Shown here: positions 2,439 through 28,725 of the stretch, piece after piece | Numbering within the stretch: position 1 is the first letter of the stretch | Layout: each line of letters opens with the position of its first letter | Assembly: GCF_016900315.1 (NCBI RefSeq) | Contig: NZ_JACSNQ010000003.1 | Span: 1 to 64,000 of the forward strand | Direction of reading: 5' to 3' | DNA length: 64,000 nucleotides | Source: Olsenella profusa | GTDB taxonomy: Bacteria > Actinomycetota > Coriobacteriia > Coriobacteriales > Atopobiaceae | Notes under the pieces: generated by a model | Seen by the model: only the letters and a program-made list of their open reading frames with translations | Databases searched by the model: none | Told to the model about the DNA's origin: nothing | Made by a program: the position numbers and the translations under genes

Positions 2439-3231
2439 CTAGCGGTGCGGGCGAAGCCAGGCGAGGAGCTCGTCGGCGGCGTCCGCGGGCAGGTCACGCA
2501 GGCTGAGGCCGTCGGTCGCGCTCGCCGCGGTGCGCGCCGACACGGTGGCCAGGTGAGCCCGACGCTGGAAGGGGCTCGCGGACGCCTGGAGGTGCTGGAT
2601 GCACCCGCGTGGCACAATGACGCCCTCCCGCGTGAGCCCACCGGAAACAAGCACCAGGTAGCGAGCGGTGTTTCCGTAGCGGGCCGCCCGGTAGGAGCGC
2701 AGCGCGTCCACCACAAGCGCCACGAGCAGCCCCGCCAGGAGCAGCGCGCCCAGAACCGACAGCGGCCGCGCCAGCCACGCGGCCCGCTCCGCCAGGCCCC
2801 CAGTGCAGGACGACCTCGCGCTCGGCGAGCTCCCAGGTACGGGCGCGCCAGACGGCGAGGCTCAGGGTCAGGCACGCAACGAAGATGATTGCGGCCGCGG
2901 CCAGCACCTGGAAAATGGCGGCAGCGTCCCCGGACAGAATGCGGCCCATCCGGGCCAGGACGAGCAGCGTGACCAGGCCGGAGGCCAGCTTGACGGCCTC
3001 CACCAGCACGGAGAGCGGGTTGGCGCGGTGGACGCCCCGAAGGGCCTCCGGGGTCACGTCCGCCGCGTCCTCGAAGAGCGAGCGCTCGGGCACGGCTAGG
3101 CGCTCGAGCTCGCGGCCGCAGGGCGTGGCGTCGGGGACCGAGGGTGCGGCCGAGGGGTGCACCGGGGCGGCGGGACGGGACTCCGCCTCAGGGGGAGCCG
3201 GGGGCCGCGGGTCCTTCTCGTCGGCGCTCAC
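2439..3231 (-). pseudogene. PH-domain membrane protein (YdbT-like), frameshifted and internally shortened
   Basis: The reading frame opens with GTG at 3231, overlapping the upstream PH gene by GTGA, and runs through two hydrophobic segments to WELAEREVVLHWG. It then leaves frame at a run of five C (2797-2801, G on the coding strand). Removing one base joins it to LAERAAWLARPLSVLGALL and a complete C-terminal PH-like segment (GGLTREGVIVPRGCIQHL) ending at 2439. YdbT-type proteins usually alternate membrane pairs with several PH domains and run to 400-500 residues. Only about 263 codons remain here, and the first PH domain is reduced to its opening strand. The similar sequences LAEREV and LAERAA flank the apparent deletion point. 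The gene is therefore probably decayed, though the one-base shift alone could be a sequencing error. Confidence 0.7.
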
Positions 3232-3707
3232 ACGTCCTCCTTGGCAAGGCGCGCGAGCTCGGCCACGCGGTCGCGCAGGGCCTCGGCATCTGCCTCCGCA
3301 AGGCCCGGAATCTCGAAGCTCTCGCCCGCCGTTGCGATGGTCACGCTGGCCAGGCCGTTCGCACGCAGGATGGGGCCCTGCTTGGTCTGCACGTGCTGGA
3401 CGCGCACCAGCGGCACGAGCACGCGCTTCTTAACAAAGATGCCGTGGTAGAGGTCCACGTCGGTGGGCGTGACGTCAAAGCGCCACGTCGCGTACTCAAC
3501 GCGGGGACTCACGAGCAGGTCGATAAGGCAGACGGCCTCCACGACGCCAGCCGCGAGGTAGACCCAGAGGACGTCGCCGCCCGCGTGGCGCACCGCGAGC
3601 CACGCCACGACGGCGATCGCCGCCACGACCACCATGCCGATGGCGTCGGACACGTACCAGACGCGCAGCATCCTGGGATCCAGGCGGCGTGTGGGAAGCG
3701 GGGTCAT
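3228..3707 (-). CDS. PH-domain membrane protein (YdbS-like)
   Basis: A 159-residue protein starting at ATG 3707. Two hydrophobic segments (about residues 17-65) are followed by a bacterial PH domain (old DUF304): WRFDVTPTDVDLYHGIFVKKRVLVP, split here only as a family hallmark, then VQHVQT and a SVTIATAG strand. YdbS and YdbT proteins are usually encoded as a pair, and this gene overlaps the broken YdbT-like gene by four bases (GTGA), so the two formed one transcript. The pair sits in the membrane, and its biochemical role is not firmly known in any species. An eleven-base C run lies at 3778-3788, about 70 bases upstream of the start. Confidence 0.85.
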   Translation of the reverse strand: MTPLPTRRLDPRMLRVWYVSDAIGMVVVAAIAVVAWLAVRHAGGDVLWVYLAAGVVEAVCLIDLLVSPRVEYATWRFDVTPTDVDLYHGIFVKKRVLVPLVRVQHVQTKQGPILRANGLASVTIATAGESFEIPGLAEADAEALRDRVAELARLAKEDV

Positions 3708-3882
3708 CGCGGTCCTCTCGTCGGGGGCTGCAGGCGCGGCCGGGCGCGGTCACCTCGCGCCATTGTCGCACAGAGCACCCCCCCCCCCGAGTCAAGCTTG
3801 CCGTGGGCGGCGGGGCCGAACGGGGAGCAGCGGCGGGCGGGCGGCGGCTTCGGGGGCAGGCGCGGCGGCAACGGGTGGCGGT

Positions 3883-4242
3883 GCTTACAAAAGCGCAGGC
3901 GTTGAGCCTTCGGCCCGTTTGGCTGCTTACAAAATGCGGGGTGTTGCGGCCCGACCCACTACATCGCTTAGAAAGTTGCGGTTGGTGCGGGCCCAGGGCT
4001 CTGACGTGCTTACAAAACCGCGGTTGATGCGGCGCGGAGGCCGCCTTTGGCCGCAACAACCGGCATATCGTAAGCATGCAGGCGTTGAGACAGTGCGACA
4101 GCTTCGTTTTCGTAAGCGTCGGGCGACCGGGCAGTACAACGACCTCGGTTTCGTAAGCGCACGGCAGCTGGAGCGGCGCAACAGCTTCGCTTTCGTAAGT
4201 GTGCGGACGTCGGGACGCCGCAACAGGCACGATTTTGCAAGC
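3883..4242. repeat. Nine-unit 26-bp repeat array, 41-42 bp period, inverted halves (family A, copy 1)
   Basis: Nine imperfect 26-27 bp units start at 3883, 3925, 3966, 4008, 4049, 4092, 4131, 4175 and 4216. The first four read GCTTACAAAA ... GTTGCGGC; the last five are the reverse complement (GCCGCAACA ... TCGTAAGC). Start-to-start distances are 39-44 bp, averaging about 41.6 bp, and the register is kept through the switch of orientation. The roughly 15-bp spacers are unrelated to one another. The rest of the gap between the PH gene and the SRP RNA (3708-4320) holds an eleven-base C run (3778-3788) and GC-rich sequence with no gene. Family A recurs at 6561-6837, so the two arrays flank the SRP RNA and adeC. 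Confidence 0.85.
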
Positions 4243-4247
4243 GAACC

Positions 4248-4282
4248 GTCCTTCTCGCCGCGCCGCAGCAGGCGAGAAGAAC
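4248..4282. repeat. Inverted pair of the GGCGAGAAGRAC word
   Basis: GTCCTTCTCGCC (4248-4259) and GGCGAGAAGAAC (4271-4282) face each other across 11 bases and can form a 12-bp stem with one mismatch. The pair lies downstream of the SRP RNA (minus strand), where it could help end transcription, but no T-run follows it. Confidence 0.7.
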
Positions 4283-4320: not shown

Positions 4321-4430
4321 AGCGCGCTCGGTGGGAACGGGTGCCCGCCAGAGGCCCCTTATGGCTGCTGCCTCCCGGCCCTGACCAGGTTCGAGGTGTT
4401 GCGTCACCCGAACCCACCGAACGCGCTCGC
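4321..4430 (-). ncRNA. ffs: Signal recognition particle RNA (4S type)
   Basis: The minus strand carries the conserved SRP RNA helix 8 core: CCTGGTCAGGGCCGGGAGGC followed by AGCAGCC. The ends pair over about 20 bases (GCGCGTTCGGTGGG with CCCACCGAGCGCGC). The resulting single hairpin of about 110 nt is the short bacterial form without an Alu domain. A TTTTGTT stretch follows the 3' end. It binds Ffh to deliver membrane and secreted proteins. Exact ends are inferred from the pairing. Confidence 0.93.
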
Positions 4431-4512: not shown

Positions 4513-6327
4513 ATGCTCAACCGCTTCTGCAAGACCCCGCTCTGGGAGTGCAACGAGGAGCTCGTGCGCGTGGCGCAGGGCGAGAAGAACGCGGACCTGG
4601 TAATCCGTCATGCCAACCTGGTCAGCGTGACCACCCACGAGATCCTGCCCGACGCCGACATAGCCGTGGCGTGCGGTCGCGTGGCCTACCTCGGCCTCGA
4701 CGGGCACACCGCCGAGCACTGCATCGGGCCAGACACGCAGGTCATAGACGCCGCCGGGCTCTACGCCGCGCCGGGCCTCATGGACAGCCACGTCCACGTG
4801 GAGAGCGCGATGGTCGGCGTGGCCGAGTACGCACGTGCCGTGGTCCCGCACGGCACCACGGCCATCTTCTGCGACCCGCACGAGTGCGCCAACGTTCGCG
4901 GCCTCGCCGGGGTGCGCGAGATGTACGCCGACGCCAGCCGGGTGCCGCTCAAGGCGATGGTCACCACGCCCTCGTGCGTTCCGGCCGTCACGGGCGTGGA
5001 GGACACCGGCGCCTCCATCGACGCCGCGCAGGTGGCCGAGAGCATGGACTGGGACGACGTGGTCGGGCTCGGCGAGATGATGAACTTCCCCGGCATCCTC
5101 TCCTGCGAGAGGAACGCCCTCGACGAGGTGCGCGCCACCCTGGCCGCGGACCACGTAGTGACCGGCCACTTCCCCTCGGCGGACCGCGACCGCGGCCTCA
5201 ACGCCTACGTGGCGGCGGGCGTCTCGTCCTGCCACGAGTCGGGCAGCTTCGACGAGGTGCTCGCCAAGCTGCGGCTGGGGATGTACGTGCAGCTGCGCTA
5301 CGGCTCGGCGTGGCTCAACCTGCCCGGGTACCTGCCGCAGCTCGTGGCCTCCGGCGTGGACACGCGCCTCTGCCTGCTCTGCACGGACGACTGCCACCCC
5401 GAGACGCTCGTCGGCGAGGGCCACATGGACCGCGTCCTGCGCGCGGCGGTGGAGCTGGGGCTCGACCCCGTCACCGCCCTCCAGATGGCGACCATCAACT
5501 GCGCGGAGTACTTCGGGCTCGCGCACGACCTGGGCTCCGTCACGCCGGGCAAGTGCGCCGACATCGTTCTTCTCGACGACCTCGAGAGCTTCCGGGCGCG
5601 CAAGGTGTTCGTGGACGGGGAGCTCGTGGCCGAGGACGGCCGGGCGCTCTTCGAGGCGCCGGCGCGCACCTGGCCGGACTGGATGACGCACACGATGAAC
5701 CTGGGGCTCACGCCCACGGCCGAGACGTTCCGCTTTGACGCCGACGGCCGCGCGGACGGCACCGCCTGCGTGCGCGCGATGGGCATCGAGCCCGGGGACA
5801 CCCTCACGCACGACATCGTGGTCGAGGTGCCCGTGCGGGACGGCGCGCTCCTGGCCGATCCGGCCCACGACGTGCTCAAGGTCTGCGTCTTCGACCGCCA
5901 CCACGGAGCCGCCGGCACGCACTCCCAGGGGTTCGTCACCGGCTTCGGCATCCACGGGGCGCTCGCGCAGACCGTCTCGCACGACGCACACAACCTGCTG
6001 GTCATGGGCGACAACGACGAGGACATGGCGCTGGCGGCCCGCACGCTCGCGGAGTGCGGCGGCGGCGAGGTGGCCGTGGCCGACGGTCGCGTGCTGGCGC
6101 TGGTGGAGCTGCCCGTGTGCGGTCTCATGAGCACAGAGCCCGTTGAGGTGGTGGCCGAGAAGGTCGCGGCGGCGAGAAGCGCCTGGGGGCAGATGGGCTG
6201 CACGATGCCCTCGCCGTTCATGACGATGGGCGTGATGTCGCTCGCGTGCGTGCCGGAGCTGCGGCTCACCAACCGCGGCTACGTGAACTGCCTCACCTTT
6301 GAGATGGAGCCGCTCGTCGTGGAGTGA
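4513..6327 (+). CDS. adeC: Adenine deaminase
   Basis: This enzyme hydrolyses adenine to hypoxanthine and ammonia in purine salvage, using a binuclear metal centre. The ATG at 4513 is preceded by AAGGAGGCGCC; the frame is open far upstream but without a better start. The 604-residue length fits AdeC (about 570-600). The amidohydrolase metal motif reads GLMDSHVHVES, later metal ligands lie in the VVTGHFP and SSCHES segments, and the AdeC C-terminal domain contains SHDAHNLLVMG and the MGCTMPSPFM ending. One GGCGAGAAGRAC word lies in frame near residue 23. Hypoxanthine made here can rejoin the nucleotide pool with the pathway genes purH, purB and purC in this window. The gene stands alone between two family A repeat arrays. 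Confidence 0.97.
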   Translation: MLNRFCKTPLWECNEELVRVAQGEKNADLVIRHANLVSVTTHEILPDADIAVACGRVAYLGLDGHTAEHCIGPDTQVIDAAGLYAAPGLMDSHVHVESAMVGVAEYARAVVPHGTTAIFCDPHECANVRGLAGVREMYADASRVPLKAMVTTPSCVPAVTGVEDTGASIDAAQVAESMDWDDVVGLGEMMNFPGILSCERNALDEVRATLAADHVVTGHFPSADRDRGLNAYVAAGVSSCHESGSFDEVLAKLRLGMYVQLRYGSAWLNLPGYLPQLVASGVDTRLCLLCTDDCHPETLVGEGHMDRVLRAAVELGLDPVTALQMATINCAEYFGLAHDLGSVTPGKCADIVLLDDLESFRARKVFVDGELVAEDGRALFEAPARTWPDWMTHTMNLGLTPTAETFRFDADGRADGTACVRAMGIEPGDTLTHDIVVEVPVRDGALLADPAHDVLKVCVFDRHHGAAGTHSQGFVTGFGIHGALAQTVSHDAHNLLVMGDNDEDMALAARTLAECGGGEVAVADGRVLALVELPVCGLMSTEPVEVVAEKVAAARSAWGQMGCTMPSPFMTMGVMSLACVPELRLTNRGYVNCLTFEMEPLVVE

Positions 6328-6416: not shown

Positions 6417-6526
6417 GCACCGTTTCAGGACGTTCTGGCTGGAAAAATCGTCCACAAACAGTGTGCCCCCTCAGCCCCGCACCGTTTCAGGACGTTCCAA
6501 GCGAGAAGAACGTCCACAAACGGTGC
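6417..6526. repeat. Two palindromic units, 62-bp period (family B, copy 1)
   Basis: Units start at 6417 and 6479. Each is a 48-50 bp imperfect palindrome: GCACCGTTTCAGGACG on the left and CGTCCACAAACGGTGC or a variant on the right. The loop and right arm of the second unit contain the GCGAGAAGAAC word (6501-6511). The same family occurs as four units at 41104-41336. The gap between adeC and the next gene (6328-7121) holds only this array, a 12-bp tandem repeat and a family A array. Confidence 0.85.
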
Positions 6527-6560
6527 GCAACACGTCTCTGCCGGCCGCGCACCGCAGGGC

Positions 6561-6837
6561 GCTTACGGATTGGCGGTAATTGCAGGTCCGCGGCGCGCGG
6601 ACGCTTACGGAACGGGGACCGGTGCAGCCTAGAACACGGCCCCGCTTTGGAAACGCGGACCGTTGCGGCTTGGCCGGACGGACCTGCTTTAAAAATCGAG
6701 CCTGTTGCGCCCTCGAAGCCAGAAACGAGCCACAAGACAACGTTCTTCTCGCCAGATTGGACGGAGCAGGGCGCACTACCCCGCAGTCTCAAAGCAGCAA
6801 CCCACCCCGAAGGCGCAACGGCTGTCAATCCGTAAGC
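6561..6837. repeat. Six-unit 26-bp repeat array, 41-42 bp period (family A, copy 2)
   Basis: Forward units start at 6561, 6603, 6644 and 6686 (GCTTACGGA- or GCTTTGGAA-type openings, TTGCGGC-type ends). Inverted units lie at 6770-6795 and 6812-6837, the latter ending TCCGTAAGC. The step from the last forward to the first inverted unit is 84 bp, exactly two periods, and the missing position overlaps a GTTCTTCTCGCC word (6742-6753). From 6838 to the next gene I see no further repeat. Confidence 0.8.
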
Positions 6838-7121
6838 AGCCACAAAGCGCACCACCGCCCGCAACATAGACGAGGGCCCGTCGACGCCGTGGCGTCCGGG
6901 CCCCCACTTTGGCAGCTGCCAAGCACTTAAGCTCTACAGTGCGAGCGCCCGCGACCAAATCTCGTCGTGCGCTCGCCCCCTGCGCATAGGTATCATTCCC
7001 CATCGAAGCCGCCGCAGCCGGCACGCTCCGGCGAACGGCGTTTTTCACCGTCGAAGCACATCTCGAAGACAAGTCCTCCACAGGGCGCTAGGATTTGTCA
7101 GAGCCAATCGAAGGAGGCCCC

Positions 7122-28484: not shown

Positions 28485-28725
28485 AAAGTCACGCTTCTGA
28501 GACGGCAAGCGTGACTTTGAGCGAGACGTCGGCAGTCGGCTCGTTGATTGTCACGCTTTCACAGCACGAAGCGTGACTTTGGGCGAGTCGTCGTCAGCCA
28601 GCTCGTTGCTAGTCACGCTTCTGAGGCGGTAAACGTGACTTTGGGCGAGCCGGCGCTCACTAGCTCGCTGTTAGTCACGTTTCAAGGGCGGAAAGCGTGA
28701 CTTCGAACGAGTCGGGAGCTCCTCC
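28485..28725. repeat. Four-unit palindromic array with exact 62-bp period (family C)
   Basis: GTCACGCTT ... AAGCGTGAC palindromes start at 28488, 28550, 28612 and 28674, exactly 62 bp apart. Each is followed by a second, weaker palindrome (GGCGAG ... CTCGTTG), so dyads occur about every 31 bp. It lies between the nifJ terminator and the phosphatase gene. The rest of that gap (28304-28484) contains a GTCCTTCTCGTCC near match to the GGCGAGAAGRAC word and no gene. Confidence 0.9.

Follow-up and report, generated by a model that had tools for sequence, protein, structure and literature searches.

The nine-unit repeat array at 3882-4243 of the 64-kb window (the whole stretch of DNA analysed here) is one of a family of intergenic arrays, here called family A, whose units run first forward and then inverted at steps of whole helical turns. 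We consider it likely that it is a dyad-symmetric array of candidate binding sites for a sequence-specific DNA-binding protein, placed at gene ends. The anatomy, the helical quantisation, the orientation rule, the location, the conservation of units over spacers and the restriction to a single genus were all observed directly. A search of the literature for such arrays in Atopobiaceae found nothing.

Results

Anatomy of the arrays in the window

The array consists of four forward and five inverted units (Table 1), as the original prediction had stated, at steps of 42, 41, 42, 42, 42, 41, 42 and 42 bp (mean 41.75 bp). The fourth of these steps spans the switch of orientation, and the claim that the register is held across the switch was likewise borne out. 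Units in the window were scored with a matrix trained on 243 units, all from other arrays. Its top 15 places, scoring 19.8-34.7, were the nine units together with six that make up a second array at 6560-6838, whereas the 16th-best place scored 8.0 and the maximum over 30 dinucleotide shuffles of the window was 14.0. The family-A consensus (YGCTTACRAAATCGCGGYTGTTGCGG, 260 units) is asymmetric and non-palindromic, with two conserved blocks per 26-bp unit, GCTTAnRAAA and TGTTGCRG. While the array is as first described, its register begins one base earlier and the informative part of the unit is 26-28 bp. In the second array the forward units begin at 6560, 6602, 6643 and 6685 and the inverted units lie at 6769-6796 and 6811-6838, an empty fifth slot being bridged by an 84-bp (8-turn) step. 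The nine-unit array itself lies between ffs and the bPH_2 gene, both on the minus strand.

Table 1. Family-A units and associated features. Coordinates refer to the window unless a locus handle (L) is given; scores are from the matrix trained on other arrays only.
Feature	Coordinates	Strand	Remarks
Unit 1	3882-3909	+	forward; score 25.1
Unit 2	3924-3951	+	forward; score 34.4
Unit 3	3965-3992	+	forward; score 27.4
Unit 4	4007-4034	+	forward, last ahead of switch; score 34.7
Unit 5	4049-4076	-	inverted, first past switch, 42-bp step retained; score 31.2
Unit 6	4091-4118	-	inverted; score 26.9
Unit 7	4132-4159	-	inverted; score 28.2
Unit 8	4174-4201	-	inverted; score 26.2
Unit 9	4216-4243	-	inverted; score 29.3
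Second family-A array	6560-6838		six units, from the same matrix
Inverted pair of intergenic motif CTTCTCGCC / GGCGAGAAG	4248-4282		immediately adjoins nine-unit array
Small SRP RNA gene (ffs)	4325-4420	-	Rfam RF00169, 51.8 bits; 3' end toward array
Bacterial PH-domain protein (bPH_2)	3228-3707	-	Pfam PF03703, E 5e-19; array upstream of start
Adenine deaminase	4513-6327	+	Pfam PF13382, E 7e-58; between the two arrays
Outward-facing 80-bp palindromic element	L032:11432-11539; L032:16666-16773; L033:1195-1302; L158		sister species too

The regular repeats and differing spacers recall a CRISPR array. Family-A units, however, are degenerate (about 60-65% alike) and of two orientations, not near-identical direct repeats of one orientation; they are separated by 14-bp spacers, occur at many loci and have spacers that are common to orthologues, in keeping with the earlier statement that the array is not CRISPR-like.

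A separate intergenic motif, GGCGAGAAGAAC, is strongly enriched between genes throughout the window's own genome (for example at 4248-4282, 6501-6513 and 6740-6752 of the window), often near stop codons and sometimes as inverted pairs, and recalls DNA uptake sequences or terminator elements. The density of GGCGAGAAG is about 1.9 per kb in intergenic DNA vs 0.4 in genes, and the 12-mer occurs 194 times in 774 kb of the genome. As the enrichment extends to all intergenic DNA and is not specific to the arrays, GGCGAGAAG was rejected as a part of them.

Number, orientation and location in the genome

Across the 2.07-Mb genome, a draft assembly in 56 contigs, a sequence-only model with a loose threshold marked 188 places; in the 774 kb around them a refined matrix gave at least 33 arrays of at least three units, with 258 units. 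The units run forward and then inverted in all 33 arrays, the reverse order occurring in none (0/33). By a simple codon-usage gene caller made for this analysis, all 33 are intergenic, with a median distance of 112 bp to a stop codon vs 204 bp to a start codon (p 0.0008), and convergent gene gaps are enriched (11/32 vs 19/120 other long gaps, p 0.026); these p-values are optimistic, since arrays share ancestry. The 32 complete contexts in two sister species comprise 13 convergent, 17 tandem and two divergent gene pairs, and the elements of these two species often lie 6-44 bp from a stop codon. Placement at gene ends could simply reflect avoidance of promoters.

Steps are quantised in helical turns

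Within runs of one orientation the pitch is 41.66 bp, that is, four turns of 10.4-bp B-DNA, and the same-orientation steps that fall within 40-43 bp have a mean of 41.70 bp. The 25 steps that are not of four turns take the values 31/32, 51-53, 62/63, 83/84, 105, 115, 125/126 and 136 bp, with one outlier of 35 bp. Their phases are concentrated at 10.4 bp (Rayleigh R 0.89, p ~3e-9), and none of 20 000 random-gap sets equalled this R, whatever period of 7-15 bp was tried; the steps are incompletely independent, since arrays may partly descend from common ancestors. Barring the 35-bp step, the spacing is that expected of a helically phased protein-binding array, in which steps are whole turns. Most of the non-four-turn steps fall at the switch of orientation, so that the register survives the switch even across a gap. 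Changes in the copy number of a 42-bp unit explain 84 or 126 bp but not 31/32, 52, 62, 105, 115 or 136 bp; steps of 31, 52, 62, 105, 115 and 136 bp are accounted for if selection keeps the units on one face of the DNA. Phasing is not universal among the array families: the units of GGTTATGCGC, at 19-bp pitch, are out of phase with the helix, and in the GTACGTAC family the core step of 92 bp does not come to whole turns.

Family A in relatives

When 84 980 species, each represented by one genome, were scanned for the pattern, 26 stretches matched, every one of them in an Atopobiaceae record; the carriers include the cultured Thermophilibacter gallinarum DSM 107455, 'Olsenella uli' An733, Candidatus Olsenella pullistercoris and S24M_St_33. 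Viral contigs scanned with the same pattern gave no match, and a viral origin was rejected. A two-unit model matched 22 of the 31 genomes of the window's own genus and gave two lone weak matches elsewhere in the family and none in the other genera of the order that were sampled. Family-A arrays are thus confined to one Atopobiaceae genus.

In T. gallinarum and S24M_St_33 the element regularly has a core that is preceded by a pair of forward units at a 42-bp step and followed by a pair of inverted ones. Its central step takes only the values 96, 106, 115-117 and 125-127 bp, that is, increments of one turn, and the sister-species cores carry GGCGAGAAG motifs together with AAACCCCAGTTG or AAACCGCAGGT. 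For 10 of 14 T. gallinarum loci an element is present at the orthologous place in S24M_St_33; at one such locus (L155/L173) the cores are 88 and 78 bp, and another orthologous pair (L154/L106) differs in length by 85 bp, about eight turns. Five arrays of the window's own genome occupy loci where sister species have 2+2 elements, so that here the core has given way to additional units. That drift is restrained more at the units than at the spacers, as had been proposed, was upheld by orthologues, units being 77.8% identical vs 66.7% for spacers in the more distant sister-species pairs (Fisher p 0.0035) and 89.0% vs 83.5% in the close pair T. gallinarum and S24M_St_33 (p 0.03). Spacer identity is about 50% in the most distant pairs, and spacer length is constant at 14 bp (13 in one).

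Other array families

Several further families were seen beside family A in the window's own genome. Palindromic GTACGTAC units, 21, 31 or 42 bp apart (also 92), occur at 2154-2320 of the window, L031:15021-15167, L058:190-400 and L065:8590-8800, around a core that contains CTTCTCGCC...CCGCAGGTAGA...GGCGAGAAG; the copies at L058 and L065 are nearly identical, which points to recent copying. Units of AAGTCACGCTT / AAGCGTGACTT lie 62, 124 and 188 bp apart (6, 12 and 18 turns) at 28486-28703 of the window, L067:18345-18603 and L051:9064-9326, and a similar array lies behind ffs in one sister genome (G002). Units of AAGTGCACC alternate at 30/32 bp (L062:4709-4826, L067:14840-14982, L045:11195-11583), some of these arrays carrying the core motif ACCTGCGGTTTT that is common to other families. 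Another element, itself palindromic, encloses CATCTACCTGC...GCAGGTAGATG between two family-A-like units that face outward and stand exactly 80 bp from each other (Table 1). Two slots, guaB-leuS and ffs-bPH (L179-L238), were compared across about 30 genomes of the genus, and the inverted arrays or repeats that occupy them differ between many of its species; the variants include GGTTATGCGC at 19-bp pitch, GGTTTGGGTTC, AATAACGG...CCGTTATT and others, often around a common core (CCAACTGGGCTTTTGT or GCAGGTA), and some slots are empty.

Discussion

A probable row of protein-binding sites

Inward-facing units have been held on one face of the helix through gain and loss of units and through changes of the core; cooperative binding by one protein that bridges the dyad would be the simplest account. 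The two conserved blocks in each unit suggest that one protein probably contacts two successive faces of the DNA, or that a dimer spans the unit. With whole-turn steps, usually of four turns, the bound proteins would be aligned on one side of the DNA and able to touch, and the inward-facing dyad would let the two arms meet, as a continuous filament in this species and as a short loop over the core of about 78-99 bp in its sisters. The intergenic position near stop codons, often between converging genes, suggests that the assembly may have a local role at gene ends, as an insulator or barrier that affects transcription or supercoiling. The binding protein, its oligomer and the role at gene ends are what we infer from the arrays. 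The genes beside the arrays had no candidate binder in common, giving only scattered similarities among members of ordinary gene families; an XRE-type gene beside one element was rejected as the binder because it does not follow the arrays.

Repeated sites for a single protein, helical phasing and cooperative assembly or looping are known from iteron arrays, plasmid centromeres (sopC, parC) and looping operators (LacI, GalR, AraC). Family A is like them in its repeated and phased sites, and by analogy cooperative assembly or looping would be expected. It differs in scale and context: each of those systems serves a replicon or regulon from one locus or a few, whereas family A is found at 33 or more places on the chromosome, its neighbours there are unrelated, and half of each array is inverted.

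BIME/REP elements, built of Y and Z2 palindromic units, have been reported as binding sites of gyrase, Pol I and IHF, and they prefer gene ends. Family A shares with them short units, many extragenic copies (the 258 units of the 33 intergenic arrays), several units per locus, both orientations, a species-specific sequence and the preference for gene ends. The units of BIMEs are imperfect palindromes in alternating orientation, and RAYT genes have REPs of their own on either side (PMC2817692). Family-A units, by contrast, are not palindromic and lie all forward and then all inverted at whole-turn steps; the arrays thus resemble REP/BIME elements but lack the traits that define them, namely alternating orientation, a palindromic unit and linkage to a Y1 transposase. 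REPIN-RAYT systems are similar in having inverted units around a spacer, tens of copies, vertical retention and sequences that differ between sister species, but family-A units are not hairpins themselves. Y1 genes are present in 28 of the genus's 31 genomes. None of 20 Y1 loci in the genus has a family-A unit beside the gene, one pair being found about 3 kb off in L254. A RAYT/REPIN link was rejected because the palindromes on either side of the Y1 genes that were read are different ones, such as GGGGACTGTCCCC. In their own right these genes (L239:4246-5118, L240:4372-5226 and 18 sister loci) are single-copy and encode divergent Y1 transposases of about 250-290 aa; most have inverted palindromes of that kind at their ends, which makes them a RAYT-REP-like system in Coriobacteriia.

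Alternative explanations

The main rival, which we regard as unlikely, is that the arrays are non-autonomous mobile elements (MITE- or REPIN-like) whose units are the inverted terminal sites of a transposase or recombinase, with helical phasing helping two ends to pair when the DNA that joins them is very short. The 2+2 inverted units around a core do recall transposon ends with several binding sites, but neither an autonomous copy nor a target duplication was seen, and the Y1 (RAYT-like) genes bear palindromes of a different kind. Paralogous elements in one genome are 70-73% alike over their full length, core included, and another array family of the window's own genome (that of GTACGTAC) has the two near-identical copies described above; within family A, however, no copies are similar enough for recent transposition, the best in the own genome being 70%. 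Elements have been gained or lost between sister species, against which stands the retention of orthologous loci between T. gallinarum and S24M_St_33. An origin as a mobile element is compatible with cooperative protein binding.

The original prediction also held that a transcript of the nine-unit array could fold into one long, evenly bulged hairpin, unit 4 pairing with unit 5, unit 3 with unit 6 and so on, and this we now think improbable. The predicted fold does beat every shuffle (z -3.1 and -3.3 for the two strands), as is expected of any inverted repeat, and the lowest-energy fold departs from the full mirror register. Selection for such a hairpin would make units change together with their partners; over 27 arrays mirror partners are 60.8% identical vs 59.4% for opposite-arm units that are not partners, a negligible effect (permutation P 0.024), and units of the same arm are more alike (65.2%) than either. 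The long folded transcript is thus not supported, and, as paired positions do not covary, the structured-RNA hairpin was rejected. At the ffs locus of several sister species a shared core does lie between single, nearly perfect inverted repeats, as a hairpin would have it, but the 10.4-bp quantisation, which includes the loop-like core, is a property of double-stranded B-DNA and not of RNA. The array matches no Rfam family at gathering thresholds. A known RNA family was rejected since Rfam gave only the SRP RNA (and tRNAs elsewhere); matches below threshold were chance ones, including two miRNA precursors that matched a plain inverted repeat.

That phased A/T-rich blocks simply bend the DNA, with no need of a specific protein, is very hard to credit. 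Every unit does have an A-rich block in a genome of 69% G+C, and the steps do amount to whole turns, but a single short block of this kind every four turns would bend the DNA little overall. Bending would require neither the conserved TGTTGC block nor the high information content of the unit, and an A-tract is missing from other families of the same genome (GTACGTAC, AAGTGCACC).

Implications

Returning to the proposed row of protein-binding sites, the arrays may, as a tentative and rather doubtful extension, represent a new class of chromosomal nucleoprotein element: dozens per genome of dyad-symmetric, helix-phased arrays at gene ends, bound by a fast-evolving family of DNA-binding proteins. 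On this view several array families of differing unit sequence coexist within a genome and take over one another's intergenic slots between sister species, around a shared core, so that site and protein would evolve in step under a constant geometry. If this is true, family A would be a dispersed element whose geometry is selected to a single helical turn, both genome-wide and between species, and would offer a natural experiment in DNA phasing, which is usually studied at one operator. The family of sites and its protein would seem to turn over fast while the layout stays fixed, and the arrays would provide a route to a candidate chromosome-organising or insulating protein in Coriobacteriia.
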